Source: Rickettsiales bacterium (lineage in GTDB: Bacteria; Pseudomonadota; Alphaproteobacteria; Rickettsiales; JAJNBL01). Taken from it: 43,573 bases of DNA. The notes beneath the pieces are model-generated. The model was not told the DNA's origin. It saw only the letters and a program-made list of their open reading frames with translations, and did not search any database. Below are positions 3,067-27,596 of the stretch, piece after piece. Every line of letters starts with the position of its first letter. The first letter of the stretch is position 1. Both the position numbers and the translations under genes were made by a program. The stretch is from positions 1 through 43,573 of the forward strand of contig JAJNBL010000011.1 in NCBI GenBank assembly GCA_021156175.1, in the 5' to 3' direction.

Positions 3067-3088
3067 AGTCCTACGTGGGACTCTTTTT
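3067..3088 (+). terminator. Possible rho-independent terminator
   Basis: AGTCC pairs with GGACT around a six-base loop and is followed by cttttt. The stem is only five pairs. No plus-strand gene ends just upstream, so it may be left over from lost DNA or may close long transcripts from the FG-GAP gene. Confidence 0.35.
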
Positions 3089-3181
3089 ATTCGCGCCTTT
3101 AGGGTTCTTTTTAGCTCTATTTAAAGGCTTTATTGTCCCGAAGCATCAGGCGGATCGGAACCCCAGGAAGATCAAAGCTAT
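3087..3181 (-). pseudogene. Decayed duplicate of the der 3' end
   Basis: Read on the minus strand this segment encodes SFDLPGVPIRLMLR, matching the Der C-terminus (SFNLPGVPIRLMLR) found at 4494-4612. Identical blocks of 24 bp (3138-3161 and 4568-4591) and 18 bp (3114-3131 and 4521-4538) are shared. Relative to the intact copy there is a deletion of 23 bp, which shifts the frame and brings an early stop. The similarity ends abruptly at about 3181, inside the DSF codons. It is therefore a partial copy, flanking the 397-aa gene on the side opposite the intact der. Confidence 0.9.
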
Positions 3182-3299
3182 TGTAAATAGAAAATTTACT
3201 TAAACAAATAATTTATGGAAATAATTATCAAACTAATTGGTTGTTTATGCCTCAGCAACTACAGTCCATCATAAGTGCAACGCGTTAAAGGATAAGATA

Positions 3300-4493
3300 A
3301 TGATAAAAGCGTTATTTAGTAAATTTACTGGCTGGGTAAAAGAAACAGCTAATAAAGTGATGGATACATTTGGTATTAGGGTGAGGCAAAGATTTTTTGA
3401 GGCATTGGAGAAGAAGGACGAAGCTCGGGCTAAGGAAATTTTACAAAAAGCATCTCCCGAAAAGGTAAAGGATATTAGCACTAGGAAAATAGACAAGAAT
3501 TCACGTTATGGTTTTCACAAGGCGGTGGAAGAAACAAATGATGTGAACATAGTAAAAACTTTATACAATGCCATTCCCTCCGATGGAGAAAAACAAGGAA
3601 TACTAAAATTTCAAAATTATAGGGCGTTACGTTTAGAAATGTTTAATCGGAAGAAGCCAAGAATTTTACAATTTCTGTTTGATCAAATTCCCGATAAAGA
3701 TAAAAAAAGTTGTATCATGAAAATTGCAACGATGTTAGGTTTCGATTACGGCGCTACTCGTTTGATATACAGCCAATTTTCTCCTGAGGATGGTTTGGAA
3801 ATTTTGTTTTTTCAAAATGAACCTCTTAAGCGTGCTCTAGTATGTGGAACTGTTGAGCTTGTGCATTTTATTTTGGATAAATATCCGGATGAAAAAAAAG
3901 TGGAGGCGCTGAAGAATCTTGGAGATTCTGTACATATGTGGTATCCAGAAATCTCAAAACTCTTGCTTGCCCATATGCTCCAACTAAATGATAAGCTTTC
4001 AGAAGAAGATAAAATTGATATAAATCCATTCTTGTATGGGATGCGAGAAAAACAAAAGGAAATTACACCAACCATTACCACTCAAGAAATTCTTCAAGAT
4101 GTAAAAGAAAATAAAGATGCCATTTTTGCAATGGCAGAAAAAAGAATGCGCCATTGGGATGATATCCAATTTGCAAAAGAACTTTGCAAAACTCCTGCAG
4201 AAGGGAGGTTTATGCAAGGCAAAATGGATTTGATCCCCGAGAATTCTAGCGATAATCCAAATGCTTCTCCTCTTCTTACATTGCCTGAGGAAATTACTCA
4301 GCGTATAGAATCTTACAAAAAACTTTATGAGATGGGGTATAAGGGAGAAAATGTTGATAAATTTGTTGATCTCATTGGACCTCGGGGAAAAGTGAACACA
4401 GATGAAATTTATTCGCCTAGCAATGTGGTGAGTTTTTTAGAGGGAGTGCGGCAACAAGAAGGCCAATCGCAAAAGCAATTGCCGGCACGTTAG
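3300..4493 (+). CDS. AT-rich helical-repeat (ankyrin-like) protein of unknown function, 397 aa
   Basis: I chose the ATG at 3300 because an aaaggat ribosome-binding site precedes it; an upstream TTG at 3237 would add 21 residues of poor quality. The protein is rich in Lys and Glu and appears helical. Units of about 30-35 residues such as FHKAVEETNDVNIVKTLYNAIP, LRLEMFNRKKPRILQFLFDQIP and LKRALVCGTVELVHFILDKYP resemble degenerate ankyrin helices, but canonical ankyrin signatures are incomplete. There is no signal peptide. Codon use is AT-richer than the neighbours. The gene overlaps the der stop by four bases tail-to-tail and lies between two copies of the der 3' end, which points to insertion or duplication. 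A role as an effector or protein-binding factor is only a guess. Confidence 0.8.
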   Translation: MIKALFSKFTGWVKETANKVMDTFGIRVRQRFFEALEKKDEARAKEILQKASPEKVKDISTRKIDKNSRYGFHKAVEETNDVNIVKTLYNAIPSDGEKQGILKFQNYRALRLEMFNRKKPRILQFLFDQIPDKDKKSCIMKIATMLGFDYGATRLIYSQFSPEDGLEILFFQNEPLKRALVCGTVELVHFILDKYPDEKKVEALKNLGDSVHMWYPEISKLLLAHMLQLNDKLSEEDKIDINPFLYGMREKQKEITPTITTQEILQDVKENKDAIFAMAEKRMRHWDDIQFAKELCKTPAEGRFMQGKMDLIPENSSDNPNASPLLTLPEEITQRIESYKKLYEMGYKGENVDKFVDLIGPRGKVNTDEIYSPSNVVSFLEGVRQQEGQSQKQLPAR

Positions 4494-5908
4494 TTATTCG
4501 TGCTTTTCGGATTCTTTTTGGCTCTATTTAAAGGCTTTCTTTTCCCATCATATGGGTTCTCGCTCTTCCGAAGCATCAGGCGGATCGGAACGCCGGGAAG
4601 GTTAAAACTATCCCGCAGAAGGTTCACCAGGTACCGGACATAGCTTTTGGGCAAATCCTCGGGCTTATTGCTAAAGAGGGTGAAGGTTGGGGGCCTGGTA
4701 TTGCCCTGAGTGATGTATTTAAGCCGTATGCGTCTCCCATGGCTCCCAATCGGGGCCATATGGCGTTCTTCTGCCCATTTTACCCATTCGTTTAGCTTTG
4801 CGGTCGGGATACGCTGGTTCCAAAGGCCATAAATCCCAATCGCAGTGGAAATCAGCTTCGAGAGGTTATTATTATAGAGCGCTGAGAGGGTGACAATCGG
4901 TATCCCTTTTACTTGCGGCAAGGATTGTTCTGCCCGCTCACGGATAAGGCGCATGGTCGCATCTTTATCTTCCACCAAGTCCCATTTATTCACGCCAATC
5001 ACGACTGAACGGCCTTCACTGAGCATCATATCAGCGATAGCGATATCTTGTTTCTCTAAGGGCTGCGTTCCATCGACCAGCAAAATACACACATGCGCAT
5101 AACGCGCTGCGCGGAAGCAGTCACTCAAAGAAAGCCTCTCGAGTTTCGAGCTGACCTTTGCTTGCCGCCTGATTCCCGCCGTATCAATGAGGCGAATCGC
5201 CTGGCCTTGGAATACCCAATCAATCGCAATCGAATCGCGCGTAATCCCCGCTTCAGGGCCTGTTAACACCCGATCCTGGCCGATCAGTGCATTCAGTAAG
5301 GTTGATTTCCCAGCATTTGGGCGGCCTACAATCGCAATCTGGAGGGCTTTGGTCGTATCCCCATCTTCTGCAGCCTGCATAAGATCCACATCCAGTTCGC
5401 CAAATTCCGTCATATAGGCATCATGATGGGGCTCTAAGGCCTCATAAAGATCGCCCATACCTTCGCCATGTTCTGCCGAAATACACGTTGGTTCGCCTAA
5501 GCCCAACCGTATCATTTCTCCAAGGGTGTTGAGCGCGACGTTGCCTTCGCATTTATTAACCACCAGAATCACCGGCCGGCCTTTTTTCCGAAGCCATTGG
5601 CCGAAATGCTTATCGAGCGGTGTCAGGCCTGAGCGGGCATCCACGACGAAGAGGGAGATATCCGCTTCCTCGACCGCTTGTTCGGTTTGCTTGAACATTC
5701 TGGCTTCAAGCTGCGCACTTGGCGCTTCTTCGAGACCTGCGGTATCAATGATGGAAAACTGCATTGGGCCGATATGCCCCTGGCCGATACGGCGGTCACG
5801 GGTTACGCCTGGCGTATCATCCACGAGCGCATGGCGAGTGCCAGTCAAGCGGTTATAAAGGGTGGATTTTCCGACATTCGGACGGCCGATGATCGCAACG
5901 GTAAACAT
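4490..5908 (-). CDS. der: Ribosome-assembly GTPase Der (EngA)
   Basis: Der is a double-GTPase needed for maturation of the 50S ribosomal subunit. At 472 aa the length is normal. The first G domain has GRPNVGKS at 8-15, DTAG at 55-58 and NKCE at 118-121; the second has GRPNAGKS at 195-202, DTAG at 242-245 and NKWD at 307-310. The C-terminal KH-like domain ends in a basic Lys/Arg-rich tail. The Glu in the first NKxD-type motif (NKCE) is, to my knowledge, common in alphaproteobacterial Der. The start is set by the ATG directly before the conserved first beta strand, with an AAGAAG stretch upstream. A decayed second copy of its 3' end lies about 1.4 kb away. Confidence 0.98.
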   Translation of the reverse strand: MFTVAIIGRPNVGKSTLYNRLTGTRHALVDDTPGVTRDRRIGQGHIGPMQFSIIDTAGLEEAPSAQLEARMFKQTEQAVEEADISLFVVDARSGLTPLDKHFGQWLRKKGRPVILVVNKCEGNVALNTLGEMIRLGLGEPTCISAEHGEGMGDLYEALEPHHDAYMTEFGELDVDLMQAAEDGDTTKALQIAIVGRPNAGKSTLLNALIGQDRVLTGPEAGITRDSIAIDWVFQGQAIRLIDTAGIRRQAKVSSKLERLSLSDCFRAARYAHVCILLVDGTQPLEKQDIAIADMMLSEGRSVVIGVNKWDLVEDKDATMRLIRERAEQSLPQVKGIPIVTLSALYNNNLSKLISTAIGIYGLWNQRIPTAKLNEWVKWAEERHMAPIGSHGRRIRLKYITQGNTRPPTFTLFSNKPEDLPKSYVRYLVNLLRDSFNLPGVPIRLMLRKSENPYDGKRKPLNRAKKNPKSTNN

Positions 5909-18573: not shown

Positions 18574-18624
18574 GGGTCAGTTCCTTTTTATTATTTAAAT
18601 TATAACAAGGTAGTAGCTCCAGAA

Positions 18625-18728
18625 GAGGTAGTCATTCCCGCGTAGGCGGGAATCCATTGTTCTTCAGTTTATACTTCTACCTTCAAAATAACCTGGCAGT
18701 GGATCCCCGCCTACGCGGGGATGACCTC
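18625..18728. repeat. Paired inverted REP element (104 bp), copy A
   Basis: The left arm gaggtagtcattcccgcg, continuing into taggcgggaatcca, is matched by a right arm ending in gcggggatgacctc. Each arm is itself a small palindrome (cccgcgtaggcggg and cccgcctacgcggg). It has the same layout as the element at 20172-20274, and the sites are between genes. Confidence 0.92.
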
Positions 18729-20145: not shown

Positions 20146-20171
20146 ATAAGTACTCCTGAGAGGCTCCCAAT

Positions 20172-20274
20172 GAGGTAGTCATTCCCGCGGAGGCGGGAAT
20201 TTATTGCCCAACTATGTGGCATATCTTCTCTACAGTTTTGCAGTGGATGCCCGCCTCCGCGGGAATGACACCTC
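20172..20274. repeat. Paired inverted REP element (103 bp), copy B
   Basis: Arms gaggtagtcattcccgcgg and ccgcgggaatgacacctc are inverted relative to each other, with inner palindromes cccgcggaggcggg and cccgcctccgcggg. It separates the two pseudopilin genes and belongs to the same family as the element at 18625-18728. Confidence 0.92.
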
Positions 20275-23549: not shown

Positions 23550-25424
23550 ATGTACGGTACCAAGACAAATATATCATTAGGTATTCTTACTCTCGTCCTT
23601 TGGTACGGGCTGCTCACCGGCTGTACGCCTTCTCAAAGTATGTTGGACGCGGCAAAGGCTACTGCTACCCCTCAAAAGATACATAATATACACGATATCC
23701 CGGATTATATTGATCCTGCGATGAAACTGAATCGGGATGATTTTACAAATATACTCCTGCCGGAAAAGAAATCGGAGACTGCGGTAAAGCCAAGTCTTCC
23801 TGAAATTATGCCAATCCTCTCAACACCCAAACCTACACCGATTGGTAATGGCAAGCTGGTAACGCTTTCGGTAACGGAAGATATTCCGCTTAAAGATGTG
23901 TTGATTGAGCTTAGCCATCAGGCAGATATTGACATGGAGCTTGATCCGAGGATTTCCGGTGGGATTATCTTACGTGTGACAAATAAGCCGGTAGAGGAAG
24001 TGATCGAGCGTATCGCACGATTGGGACAATTGCGTTATATGGTAAAAGACGGTGTGCTTCGCATACAACAGGATGACGCGTATACTGTCAATTATTCTGC
24101 ATCGTTCCTCAATCTTTCCCGTTCTAATACAGGAAGTGTCTCTATTTCGACAGAAGTTTTGGGGGGTGGTGTCGGAGGCGGAAGTGGCTCTGAGAGCGGC
24201 AGTAATAGTAATAGTAGTAGCAGTAATAGCAGTAGTGGGTCAGGTAGTTCAAGCGGTGGTGGTGGTGCTGGTTTAACCTCAGGCTCACAAAATAGTATTA
24301 CATCCGAGTATAATGGTGATTTATGGGCGGCGATCGCAAGCGGTGTGGGAGATATTCTTGCGCAAAGTAATGGTGAAACAGCGATGGGTGCGACGCAAAT
24401 GAGCATGGGGCAGCCAACCCCTCTTGCTGATCCTACAACACCTGCAGCAACGGTTTCTGCAAATCAGAATGTTTCCGTGAATCGCCAGGCAGGTCTCATT
24501 AGCGTAATGGCAAACGGCCGTACACATGAAAAAATAGCGGAATATCTGGAGAAGGTGAAACGCTCTGTATCGGCGCAAGTCCTAATCGAAGCCAAAGTAT
24601 TGGAAGTGACGCTTAATGACGAATATCGTTCAGGGATTAACTGGAGCTTTACCGACGATAACCTCCAACTTTCGACCGCAGGAAGCTTTGTTGATTCTCT
24701 CGGAGGGCAAACAAGTTTATTCACGCTCTCTGGGCTTTCTAAAACACCGGCAGGGAATTTAGAGGCGGCGATCAATTTCACGCAGAAATTTGGTACTTCG
24801 CGTACGCTCTCAAGTCCGCGTGTACTTGCAACCAACAACCAACAGGCCGTTTTGACCTTTGCGGAAAACCAAGTGTTCTTTACCCTGACTTTGCAGGAGC
24901 AAGAAGAAGAGAACACGACAGGTAGTACGCAGAATACACTGACCGTAGAAAGCGAGATGCATAGTGTGCCGATTGGGGTGATCCTATCGCTTCAGCCATC
25001 CATTGACCTCGATAACAACGAAATCACGATGAATGTCCGTCCGACCCTTTCCCGGATTACGGAACATGTGACAGATCCAGGAACAAGCTTAATTGCGCGT
25101 CGTAATAACGTTTCGGATATCAGCAGCGAAGTGCCGATTGTGGAAGTGCGTGAGATGGATTCCGTCCTCAAAATCAAAAACGGTCAAGTGATGGTGATCG
25201 GTGGGTTGATGGAAGAGCGCAGTGTGAACGAGGATAAAGGTATCCCTGGCATCAGCAAAATTCCCGCCATTGGCAACTTATTTAAATCCGTTGAAAAAAC
25301 CAACGAAGTCGTAGAAACCGTGATTCTGATTAAAGCTACAATCGTCCCAGGTTACGGGGTAGGCGAGCATGACCAGAAATTGTTCAAGACCTTTACTCAC
25401 GATCCGCGCCCGGCTGCCTTTTAG
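23550..25424 (+). CDS. Secretin lipoprotein of MshL/PilQ type
   Basis: This is an outer-membrane secretin that would form the exit ring of a type IV pilus or type II secretion apparatus. The signal peptide ends in a lipobox LLTGC with Cys25. A short secretin/TonB N-terminal (STN) domain follows at about residues 108-180 (VTEDIPLKDVLIELSHQADI). Then comes a Ser/Gly/Asn tract of about 50 residues, and the secretin domain with QVLIEAKVLEVTLND, SPRVLATNNQQA and VMVIGGLMEERSV near the end. It is 624 aa, a usual size. An acgagg motif precedes the ATG. No ATPase or platform protein is in the window. Confidence 0.93.
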   Translation: MYGTKTNISLGILTLVLWYGLLTGCTPSQSMLDAAKATATPQKIHNIHDIPDYIDPAMKLNRDDFTNILLPEKKSETAVKPSLPEIMPILSTPKPTPIGNGKLVTLSVTEDIPLKDVLIELSHQADIDMELDPRISGGIILRVTNKPVEEVIERIARLGQLRYMVKDGVLRIQQDDAYTVNYSASFLNLSRSNTGSVSISTEVLGGGVGGGSGSESGSNSNSSSSNSSSGSGSSSGGGGAGLTSGSQNSITSEYNGDLWAAIASGVGDILAQSNGETAMGATQMSMGQPTPLADPTTPAATVSANQNVSVNRQAGLISVMANGRTHEKIAEYLEKVKRSVSAQVLIEAKVLEVTLNDEYRSGINWSFTDDNLQLSTAGSFVDSLGGQTSLFTLSGLSKTPAGNLEAAINFTQKFGTSRTLSSPRVLATNNQQAVLTFAENQVFFTLTLQEQEEENTTGSTQNTLTVESEMHSVPIGVILSLQPSIDLDNNEITMNVRPTLSRITEHVTDPGTSLIARRNNVSDISSEVPIVEVREMDSVLKIKNGQVMVIGGLMEERSVNEDKGIPGISKIPAIGNLFKSVEKTNEVVETVILIKATIVPGYGVGEHDQKLFKTFTHDPRPAAF

Positions 25425-25546
25425 AAACTACCCTGTCTTGCTGCAAATGCGATTTTCTTTGCTCCGATGCGCACGTACATGTGAGTACGCTTATACTTCG
25501 GTGCTCGAAAAAATCACCTTTGCGCTGACGACATGCTAGTTTCTCA
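25421..25546. repeat. Long imperfect palindromic element with 8-bp terminal inverted repeats
   Basis: agaaacta (25423-25430) and tagtttct (25537-25544) bracket about 106 bp that folds on itself around cgtac/gtacg. Inner arms match in blocks (gcaaa with tttgc, gattttc with gaaaaaatc, tccga with tcggt). The left edge covers the secretin stop codon and the right edge lies four bases before the devA stop, so the element fills the gap between convergent genes. Confidence 0.8.
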
Positions 25547-25549
25547 TCA

Positions 25550-26263
25550 TTATGAGTTCTCCAATATCTTCCCATCTTCCAACTCCACCACCCGATCTGC
25601 CATATCCAAGATTCGGTAATCGTGTGTCACAAGAAGAATGGTCGTGCCACGTTCACGGGCAAGGTTCTTGAGGATTTCCACTGCATCATGTCCGCTTTGT
25701 TTATCAAGCGACGCGGTTGGTTCGTCTGCAAGAACGATACTCGGATTTCTCACAAGCGCCCGTGCAATCGAAACGCGTTGTTTTTGCCCACCCGATAATG
25801 CATTGGGCATATAATGCAATTTATCCCCAAGCCCTACGGCTTTAAGCATTTCGGTGGAGCGATAGTGGCGTTCGTTTTCGGTTAAATTATCTTCCAGCTC
25901 AAGTGCCATGCAGACATTTTGCAATGCCGTTAAACTCTCAAGCAAATTATGTTGTTGGAAAATAAAACCAATATGTTGGCGTAAATCAACGCGCGCATCT
26001 TCCGTGGCTCCGACCATGGATTTCCCGAGTACATTCACGGTTCCATCTTCTGCTGCGCGTAAAGCGCCGATGAGGGTAAGTAATGTGGTTTTCCCTGAAC
26101 CCGAAGGGCCGGTGAGGATCACAATCTCGCCAGGATAAATGCTAAGCGACACATCCTTTAGTACCTGGATTTTCAGTTCTCCGGTGCCGTAAGAAAAATT
26201 CAAGCGCCGGACATCAATTGCGGGAAGCTTTGCATGAGCCGGAGTAGGGACTTTTTCAGGCAT
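25550..26263 (-). CDS. devA: ABC exporter ATP-binding protein, DevA-like
   Basis: DevA-type ATPases energise DevBC, MacB-like systems that export lipids or small molecules. Walker A GPSGSGKT is at 52-59, the signature LSGGQ at 156-160, Walker B IVLADE at 176-181 and the H-loop His at 214; 237 aa is typical. The start follows the remnant of a second devC 3' end by two bases. It is the last gene of devB-devC-devA on the minus strand. Confidence 0.92.
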   Translation of the reverse strand: MPEKVPTPAHAKLPAIDVRRLNFSYGTGELKIQVLKDVSLSIYPGEIVILTGPSGSGKTTLLTLIGALRAAEDGTVNVLGKSMVGATEDARVDLRQHIGFIFQQHNLLESLTALQNVCMALELEDNLTENERHYRSTEMLKAVGLGDKLHYMPNALSGGQKQRVSIARALVRNPSIVLADEPTASLDKQSGHDAVEILKNLARERGTTILLVTHDYRILDMADRVVELEDGKILENS

Positions 26264-26464
26264 GGTTAAAATATATCCGCAGGGTTGGCTGAACGCATTT
26301 TGCGCATCCTAATTACATATAATAAAACTCAAACCTGGCGCAGGGCCGATCCCCAGCAAGGGTTTGTCAAAATTTCACCATGGAAAAGTACACCGAAGCG
26401 AAGCGGAGGGACTTTTTCATGAACGCTCAAAACATATTCGCAGGGTTGGCCGAACGCATTTTAC
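26246..26464. repeat. Direct duplication spanning the devC 3' end and devA 5' end
   Basis: 26246-26303 and 26407-26464 are about 58-bp copies, 161 bp apart. Both include agggactttttca and the cgcagggttgg block. The devA-proximal copy joins a devC-like end to the devA start; the other joins the true devC end to a decayed devA-like start. About 100 bp of unique sequence separates them. Confidence 0.9.
26266..26303 (-). pseudogene. Remnant of a duplicated devC 3' end
   Basis: On the minus strand this segment reads MRKMRSANPADIF followed by a stop, nearly identical to the true DevC C-terminus MRKMRSANPANMF at 26427-26464. It lies two bases before the devA start codon, the likely original spacing between devC and devA. 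Confidence 0.88.
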
Positions 26465-27596
26465 GCATCGCAAGGGAACCAGAAATTGTACACATCCCCA
26501 ATATCAAACTAAACACATAAAGTACTTTCGTAAATGGCATCGGCATCGGAATATAGGTCACCGATTCCGCCATCTTATACAAGCCAAACGAGAGCGCAGC
26601 ACCCGGAATAAATCCAATCACCGCCAAAATCAGCGATGATGCAAACACGACAAGAATAAGGTAACGGTGCGAATAGCCCAGCGCCTTTAATGTCGCATAT
26701 TCATGCAAGTGGTTGGTGATATCAGTAAACAGAATTTGGTACACGATCACCATCCCCACGACCAGCCCCATAATCATGCCGAATCCAAAGATAAATCCGA
26801 TCGGTGCACTATTTGCCCAATAGCCCATTTCAAACGCAACAAATTCCTTGTGCGTAAAGAGATTCACATCCTCACTTAACAGTCCGCGCAGCTCTTCTTG
26901 TACCTTCTTCACATCGCTTCCGATTTTCAAACGAATCACGCCAATATCAATTTGCTCAACATTCCGAAGCGGGAAAATACGTTGGAAATTCTGATCGCTG
27001 ATGATCATATTCCCGTCCGCGGCAAATGAAATCCCCATCTTGAATGTGCCGATCACCTCGATGCGCCGATCGTTGAGTTCCGTAAACACCCGGCCTTTTT
27101 GCAGCATCGTCGTAAGCGGTCCAAATTCCGGGCGCGACATCATATCAAAAATCGCGGTATCGGGGAGGGTAAGCGCATCCTGATACGCTACAATATCGGG
27201 ATGATTAAATACTTTTGCTTCCGGCGCATAGCCAAACACCATTAAGGTGCGTTTGGTGCGTTTTTCTGGATTCTTAAAGGGCGCCTGCGCCACATACAGC
27301 GGATAGACTTCTGCCACATTGGGATTTCCCCACACGCGCATCAGCTCGCTGCGCGAGAAAATCTGCGTTCGCCAAATCGCTTCCGTTTGGCGGTGAACGA
27401 GGAACAAATCCCCATCCATTTTATGCGGCAAGATGCCCGTACTATAATAAAGCGAATCACGAAATCCGAGCTGCATGAAGACCAGCACGCAGGCAAAGAG
27501 CACTCCCAAAATCGCGGCAATCAATTTTGCCCGTTCAAAGGTAAGTTGCCGCCAGGAAAGGCGTGCGGCGAAGTAAAAGCTTTTATCCAGCCTCAT
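26427..27596 (-). CDS. devC: ABC exporter permease, DevC-like
   Basis: The 389-aa protein has the MacB/FtsX permease layout: one N-terminal membrane helix (about residues 22-44, ending FMQLGFRDSLYYS, a DevC hallmark), a large periplasmic domain, and three C-terminal helices from about residue 265. It works with DevA and with the HlyD-type adaptor encoded just upstream, whose stop overlaps its start by four bases. The exported substrate is not known; in cyanobacteria the same family exports glycolipids. Confidence 0.92.
   Translation of the reverse strand: MRLDKSFYFAARLSWRQLTFERAKLIAAILGVLFACVLVFMQLGFRDSLYYSTGILPHKMDGDLFLVHRQTEAIWRTQIFSRSELMRVWGNPNVAEVYPLYVAQAPFKNPEKRTKRTLMVFGYAPEAKVFNHPDIVAYQDALTLPDTAIFDMMSRPEFGPLTTMLQKGRVFTELNDRRIEVIGTFKMGISFAADGNMIISDQNFQRIFPLRNVEQIDIGVIRLKIGSDVKKVQEELRGLLSEDVNLFTHKEFVAFEMGYWANSAPIGFIFGFGMIMGLVVGMVIVYQILFTDITNHLHEYATLKALGYSHRYLILVVFASSLILAVIGFIPGAALSFGLYKMAESVTYIPMPMPFTKVLYVFSLILGMCTISGSLAMRKMRSANPANMF

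Follow-up and report, generated by a model that had tools for sequence, protein, structure and literature searches.

The element in the window

Between a secretin gene and a convergent ABC transporter ATPase gene of a Rickettsiales bacterium lies a long palindrome, raising the question of whether it is a terminator or a copy of a mobile repeat and, if it is mobile, how it came to begin on a stop codon. The window, by which we mean the whole stretch of 43,573 nucleotides that was analysed, is the whole of contig 7 in a genome of 2,015,189 bases on 12 contigs. A sequence-only reading of this DNA had described terminal inverted repeats of 8 bp and imperfect self-complementary arms around cgtac and gtacg, and both descriptions held. 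The outer 8 bp (AGAAACTA and TAGTTTCT) are a perfect match to each other within outer arms that are 87% complementary (25423–25437 and 25530–25544), a second arm pair (25443–25456 and 25510–25523) is 86% complementary, and the palindromic apex at 25469–25490 contains CGTAC-N6-GTACG (Table 1). The same reading correctly placed the start of the element in the secretin stop codon, but its distance of four bases from the other end to the stop of "devA", its name for the convergent ATPase gene, proved to be five.

Table 1. Positions of the palindromic element, its parts and its neighbouring genes in the window.
Feature	Position	Strand	Basis or remark
Whole palindromic element	25421–25548	− (family model strand minus; gene-sense/secretin strand plus)	Arms, fold, DNA search of the host genome, model match
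Covariance-model match, positions 1–106	25430–25536	−	85.7 bits, E 6.9e-19
Outer tip / terminal inverted repeat AGAAACTA	25423–25430	+	Covers last two bases of secretin stop
Outer tip / terminal inverted repeat TAGTTTCT	25537–25544	+	
Inner arm, belonging to the GCTGCAAATG box of the family (gene-sense strand)	25443–25456	+	
Inner arm, complementary partner of 25443–25456	25510–25523	+	
Apical hairpin CGTAC-ATGTGA-GTACG	25474–25489	+	One of the family's best-conserved parts
Secretin stop codon TAG, at element boundary	25422–25424	+	ORF list
Secretin gene (PF00263), facing the element in the family's usual orientation	23550–25424	+	Pfam
ABC transporter ATPase gene (PF00005), convergent	25550–26263	−	Pfam; stop 25550–25552

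As had been proposed, the element is non-coding, in that no ORF of at least 120 aa in the ORF list crosses it. The predicted RNA fold of 25421–25548 was more stable than that of any of 200 dinucleotide shuffles (−37.1 vs a shuffle mean of −26.2; z −3.35), and the DNA fold gave a z of −2.63, with 2 of 200 shuffles as good. No T-tract follows the outer stem, and the only part that fits a loose terminator pattern is the weak apical stem of five pairs, where 0.4 such stems were expected in shuffles. These results speak against a plain Rho-independent terminator. A known Rfam RNA was ruled out, as no Rfam family matched the element at its gathering score and the best permissive match had an E value of 4.9.

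Other repeats are also present in the window. A different palindromic family, with the sequence GTCATTCCCGCG(G/T)AGGCGGGAAT and inverted partners, occurs at 18616–18725 and 20163–20269, and an 813-aa ORF at 206–2647 contains a tandem repeat of about 222 bp in up to seven copies. Two repeat pairs of 53 and 44 bp, at 3087–3181 and 4494–4611, flank an ORF at 3237–4493. A 63-bp direct repeat, 86% alike, is found at 26246–26308, at the start of the ABC ATPase gene, and at 26407–26469, at the end of the next gene, which encodes an FtsX-type permease.

Copies in the genome and in other bacteria

A BLAST search of the host genome recovered the element itself and copies on other contigs, and those that aligned over most of its length were only 71–78% alike, indicating that they are old. 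We built a covariance model from nine copies, including the window copy, whose match (Table 1) is therefore that of a training member. The model found 64 places at E≤0.01 in the host genome, and 78 matches at E≤10, some of which were the opposite strand of the same element. Full, strong matches were 102–109 bp long; the family core is about 105 bp, or roughly 120–150 bp with its tips. The sequence-only reading had looked to a genome-wide search of the arms for several dispersed copies with the same tips: the dispersed copies were found, but the tips were not the same in all of them. Four copies (L007, L008, L010 and L015) form a second subfamily that has GCGTAAGCGTAC..GTACGTGCGCA as its core and AGAGCATTTTCGCTTTAATT-like tips, L008 and L010 being the clearest examples.

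Within the order, 17 of 36 genomes, our own included (16 of the 35 others), had matches, with up to 24 in another genome; three of these positives (G006, G018 and G028) have one match each, at E 0.001–0.004. A sparse sample of the class, searched with stricter filters, yielded matches in 16 of 289 genomes, again counting our own. We also scanned named genomes by pattern and applied the covariance model to 36 of the 66 pattern loci, which revealed full-length members in Phyllobacterium, Mesorhizobium, Pseudochrobactrum, Rhizobium, Asticcacaulis and other Alphaproteobacteria, and a nearly full one in Sphingobium. Eight genomes picked because one locus had already matched all had matches at E≤0.001: Phyllobacterium trifolii (59), Sphingobium sp. 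DEHP117 (44), Pseudochrobactrum saccharolyticum (22), UBA6187 (14), Asticcacaulis tiandongensis (12), a Brucellaceae MAG (12), Mesorhizobium sp. STM 4661 (7) and a Rhizobium MAG (2). BLASTN with one Phyllobacterium copy matched 30 plasmid records, one from Legionella and the others listed under genera of Alphaproteobacteria, and no phage record. The distribution across the order, the class, the named genomes and the plasmids indicates that the family is wide but patchy.

Matches outside the Alphaproteobacteria were left out of the member counts. They were weak or partial, and came from a Myxococcales MAG (50.4 bits, positions 27–80), a MAG labelled Saccharibacteria (45.2), a Gammaproteobacteria MAG (36.6), a Pseudomonadales MAG (29.2) and a Bacteroidia genome (28.3), while pattern loci from Binatota, Rokubacteria and Paenibacillus matched mainly at the apex. 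The Candidatus Binatota MAG JAJRWY01 (L078–L143) holds many palindrome copies that share mainly this apex and are often near contig ends.

Conserved fold and variable tips

Pairing was retained across the family. In an alignment of 82 of 83 source sequences, 92.5% of cells were paired vs 76.5% in shuffles, none of 500 shuffles reaching the observed value, and 334 double changes were counted vs 98 in shuffles, although the structure alignment is fitted to the model and flatters these figures; control structures slid along the alignment paired 20–47% of cells. The folded core is thus conserved, with compensatory changes. A chance palindrome or plain terminator present as a single copy could draw on the one weak terminator-like stem, but it is contradicted by the 64 places in the host genome, the members in other genomes and this covariation, and we give it next to no probability. 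The single-copy terminator in particular was ruled out by the dispersed copies and the near-chance terminator pattern.

The outer arms vary between copies, yet they are complementary within each copy. When arms were swapped between copies, the arm score fell from 7.33 to 3.29 for copies of the host genome (n=30), from 9.67 to 3.26 for those of the same order (n=24) and from 11.86 to 4.37 for those of named genomes (n=14), and in each set none of 2000 permutations reached the within-copy score; L125 and L133, which are copies of others, were excluded. Comparison of the tips of 70 copies, with the weak L064–L066 left out, revealed that tips are shared within Phyllobacterium and differ among lineages, making it doubtful that one transposase served all of them. 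The idea that the core nested into terminator hairpins, which would explain the variable tips, is less needed given the shared Phyllobacterium tips, though it may hold for the host genome.

Wobble pairing was uneven, with G.T pairs outnumbering A.C pairs on the model strand (123 vs 59, 63 vs 16 and 34 vs 15), much of the excess coming from one conserved G.T pair present in 67–68 of 82 copies. Well-paired columns of structure-free alignments gave 35 G.T to 20 A.C, or 46 to 18, according to the alignment direction; without the conserved pair, the firm pairs gave p values of 0.058 or 0.0006, again by direction and with cells taken as independent. The four fastest-changing pairs, picked post hoc, showed 58 G.T vs 8 A.C, and we gave them no weight. 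This imbalance favours the strand antisense to the adjoining gene, and is no more than suggestive.

Association with stop codons

Unusually, the majority of the copies examined directly follow a stop codon, and do so in a single orientation. We took statistics on 50 of the 64 copies in the host genome, leaving out the 14 weakest (E about 8e-6 and worse), and counted on each side the longest facing ORF with a stop before the middle of the element, with an extra scan for frames that read further. The facing gene stops 0–15 bp outside the model on the 3' (model-strand) side in 34 of the 50 copies and on the other side in 4; a close stop was found on the usual side only in 31 copies and on the other side only in one. 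In the window copy (L034) the secretin stop lies 5 bp outside the model, with the ATPase stop 13 bp off the other side. In the window contig, the sole basis for the expectation, 4.2% of gene-free positions follow a stop at this short distance, and stop codons make up 2.9% of T[AG] sites. Among the first 30 copies, 29 had at least one neighbouring gene ending towards them (9 convergent, 20 tandem and 1 divergent).

Frames of at least 90 open codons that read into the element were found on the usual side in 4 of 50 copies (L039, L041, L045 and L179), and on the other side in 1 of 50. In those four copies a longer ORF in another frame stops 5–11 bp outside the model, so that the 90-codon frames are probably spurious. 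The scarcity of frames reading in is not a consequence of an element full of stops, since 30 of the 50 copies have a gene-sense frame that is open throughout.

The same association was seen in other genomes, for which 91 entries (90 after duplicates) were counted, with 6 of 73 matches left out as duplicates, an orthologue or a fragment. A stop lay within −30 to 35 bp of the model on the usual side in 19 of 24 copies of the same order and on the other side in 4 of 24, and the corresponding counts for the class and the named genomes were 49 and 17 of 66. Close stops were almost all TAA or TAG in the host genome (33 of 34), where TGA is rare anyway (6 of 42 in the window), and outside it they comprised 28 TAG, 21 TAA and 19 TGA (n=68); these 19 TGA stops reject a TA-only (YTAR) target as a general rule. 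Gene ends were taken from ORF calls, except in annotated plasmids. Of 12 plasmid regions opened, 11 were annotated, and 7 of these, two of which are orthologues, have a CDS ending at the boundary within about 2 bp; the other four (H1, H12, H17, and H11, with a CDS end on the other side) do not fit. We found no account of a stop-codon rule for such a family in the literature surveyed, which mostly excludes subscription papers, where a prior mention is possible.

Filled and empty sites in Phyllobacterium

Comparison of orthologous sites provided evidence of mobility. A stretch of P. bourgognense with two elements (sites 1 and 2) was compared with 20 Phyllobacterium genomes, and a second comparison (sites A, B and C) covered 19 genomes. 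At site 1, P. trifolii is empty (GAAGAG-AGCG-AGCCC) and P. bourgognense is filled (GAAGAG-AGCG-[element]-AGCG-AGCCT), with ESEPAYN-stop closing the reading frame of the empty allele and ESA-stop that of the filled one, where the TGA stop lies inside the element tip. At site 2, the gene of the filled allele runs up to the element and ends in VIMEFI-stop, and the element-free G347 and G341 have their stop at the same codon position; the empty allele of G347 keeps tip-like letters and may therefore be a deletion scar. In carriers at site A a TAG or TAA abuts the element, and the gene of the element-free G334 ends at the same codon with TGA. At site B, P. trifolii carries the element with a TTAG on either side; G333 and G330 lack it, and their alleles are not letter-identical. 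Site C is empty in at least G341 and G346, with 6 bases between the flanks. Direct repeats of 4 bp could be read at two sites only, AGCG at site 1 and TTAG at site B. The filled and empty sites show precise insertion or loss; beyond the possible scar in G347, either event would account for the differences at the other sites. This evidence is from Phyllobacterium, the same-order set having included no same-family relative of our organism. Together with the dispersed copies and the members in other Alphaproteobacteria, the filled and empty sites bear out the earlier suggestion of a mobile palindromic family.

Several other Phyllobacterium genomes hold unrelated palindromic repeats at site 2 (L229–L258), so that different palindromic families occupy the same 3' site in different species. 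This speaks for a rival reading in which the elements are domesticated 3'-end hairpins, kept as bidirectional terminators, as stabilisers of mRNA 3' ends or as dampers of translation, like the REPs of E. coli. The strong structural covariation and the genes ending towards 29 of the first 30 copies agree with such roles, and there is a precedent in E. coli, part of whose REPs lie within 15 nt of a stop codon according to passages of PMC12306157. However, the outer stem is not followed by a T-tract, alleles without the element exist, the wobble lean points to the strand antisense to the gene rather than the mRNA strand, and function alone would not fix a stop codon at the boundary base. We consider the domesticated-hairpin reading unlikely, though it deserves some weight.

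Search for a mobilising enzyme

Pattern searches with one tip type each, in the host genome and in P. trifolii, found no autonomous element with matching tips; in P. trifolii, 14 real matches compared with 9 in the control. The best unpaired tip match in P. trifolii was a broken copy that the model had missed; it again starts on a stop codon, and the ORF there may encode an autotransporter. The Y1 transposase (PF01797) was absent from all 17 element-bearing genomes of the order and present in 7 of the 36 genomes, none of which matched the element. Because the two never co-occur, for which we calculate a chance probability of about 0.006, a REP/RAYT system was rejected in this order. One of the Y1 genomes, G011, has 89 Y1 matches of nearly equal score in a 2.0-Mb genome without the element. 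No integron integrase (TIGR02249) scored over the cut-off in the 36 genomes, which speaks against integron attC sites. Weak TIGR02249 matches occurred in 35 of 36 genomes of the order and also in 13 of 14 control genomes, suggesting that they are ordinary tyrosine recombinases.

These searches bear on two further explanations. The ends of IS200/IS605 elements and attC sites act on one strand, and by analogy the family could be a single-strand-DNA mobile hairpin, in which the gene-antisense strand folds and a strand-specific recombinase inserts it beside stop codons. The fixed orientation favours this, as does the G.T excess on the model strand, which persists on the firm pairs of the structure-free alignments. 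Much of that excess is one conserved pair, however, the remainder depends on the alignment direction, Y1 was absent from the 17 element-bearing genomes of the order, and no integron integrase scored over the cut-off in the 36; we assign the single-strand hairpin a low probability. Equally improbable in our judgement is stop-codon homing, in which the strand antisense to the host gene would fold and insert one way only, its first base completing TAA, TAG or TGA. If true, genes would be spared, and the class-wide spread would have been achieved without a Y1 transposase or an integron integrase, implying a novel rule of insertion and perhaps also a novel recombinase.

Relation to known repeat families

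The element is a MITE-like palindromic repeat. Bacterial MITEs, exemplified by the Correia and RUP types, resemble it in being short and non-coding, with inverted tips and empty sites, and to this extent the comparison with MITEs in the earlier reading stands; direct repeats of the kind that MITEs leave could be read here at two sites only. They differ from it in that here the tips vary strongly, orientation at stop codons is one-way and no parent transposase was found by tip pattern, which a strict MITE label needs.

Among named repeats, Bru-RS1 and Bru-RS2 of Brucella come closest in size, palindromy, copy number and host, and we set them beside the family by description without claiming identity. 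Passages in PMC2267715, PMC3163539 and PMC10800456, citing Halling and Bricker (1994), describe palindromic, dispersed repeats of 103–106 bp, with Bru-RS1 as a putative landing site of IS711 at a YTAR target. By these descriptions the likeness extends to palindrome size (102–109 bp here), tens of copies and an intergenic location; those passages mention no stop-codon rule. Relatives of Brucella carry the present family (22 matches in Pseudochrobactrum and 12 in the Brucellaceae MAG).

CIR repeats are tied to CcrM methylation sites. They were reportedly described in Caulobacter by Chen and Shapiro in 2003. CIRs are inverted repeats of more than 100 bp, and our family shares this size as well as the inverted-repeat structure and the intergenic location. 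GANTC was found in 7 of 50 copies of the host genome, a smaller share than in random 107-mers drawn from the window, 24% of which contain it, and a CcrM-linked CIR was ruled out for want of enrichment. Many Rickettsia palindromic elements (RPE) insert in frame inside genes. They too are palindromic elements in an alphaproteobacterial genus, but they differ from our family, in which the facing gene stops just outside 34 of 50 copies and 90-codon frames read into 4 of 50. In-frame insertion within genes is not the rule here, and one Phyllobacterium insertion (site 1) shortened a frame. Passages of PMC10969869 name CIR repeats in Caulobacter and other alpha-proteobacteria, and give RPEs a length of about 150 bp.

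REP/BIME-RAYT systems are similar as dispersed palindromes near gene 3' ends, but passages of PMC3733652 give REPs a length of 20–40 bp compared with 102–109 bp here, and the element-bearing genomes of the order are without Y1. In Thalassospira lucentensis, two small RNA sequences from two loci, listed in Table 5 of PMC6413936, resemble the arms of the family.

Proposed insertion beside stop codons and its implications

The most probable explanation, in which we have reasonable confidence, is that the window element belongs to an old and widespread family of mobile palindromes that are non-autonomous, and that it was inserted in trans next to a stop codon. An enzyme supplied in trans would recognise the tips or the hairpin and insert the element after a T-A or T-G dinucleotide. 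Wherever this dinucleotide opens a stop codon, the element's first purine would supply the last base (TA+R or TG+A), so that the host gene would keep its end or lose only a few residues, and selection would then retain such harmless insertions. In the window, insertion would have taken place at the secretin stop (TA+G), and the element now occupies the space up to the convergent ATPase gene. The secretin mRNA would then carry a large hairpin at its 3' end. It is possible that this hairpin acts as a terminator or a 3'-end stabiliser.

A symmetrical target does not account for the orientation bias, and this is one point against trans insertion as set out here. Selection by itself would not readily place 34 of 50 copies at one end only, and it is likely that a preference on the enzyme's part, or a function of the hairpin after stops, contributed as well. 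The one-sided lock on stop codons demands either a stop-codon-directed mechanism of insertion or strong selection at gene ends. Families of such size can form a notable, seemingly unannotated share of the 3' intergenic DNA of Alphaproteobacteria.
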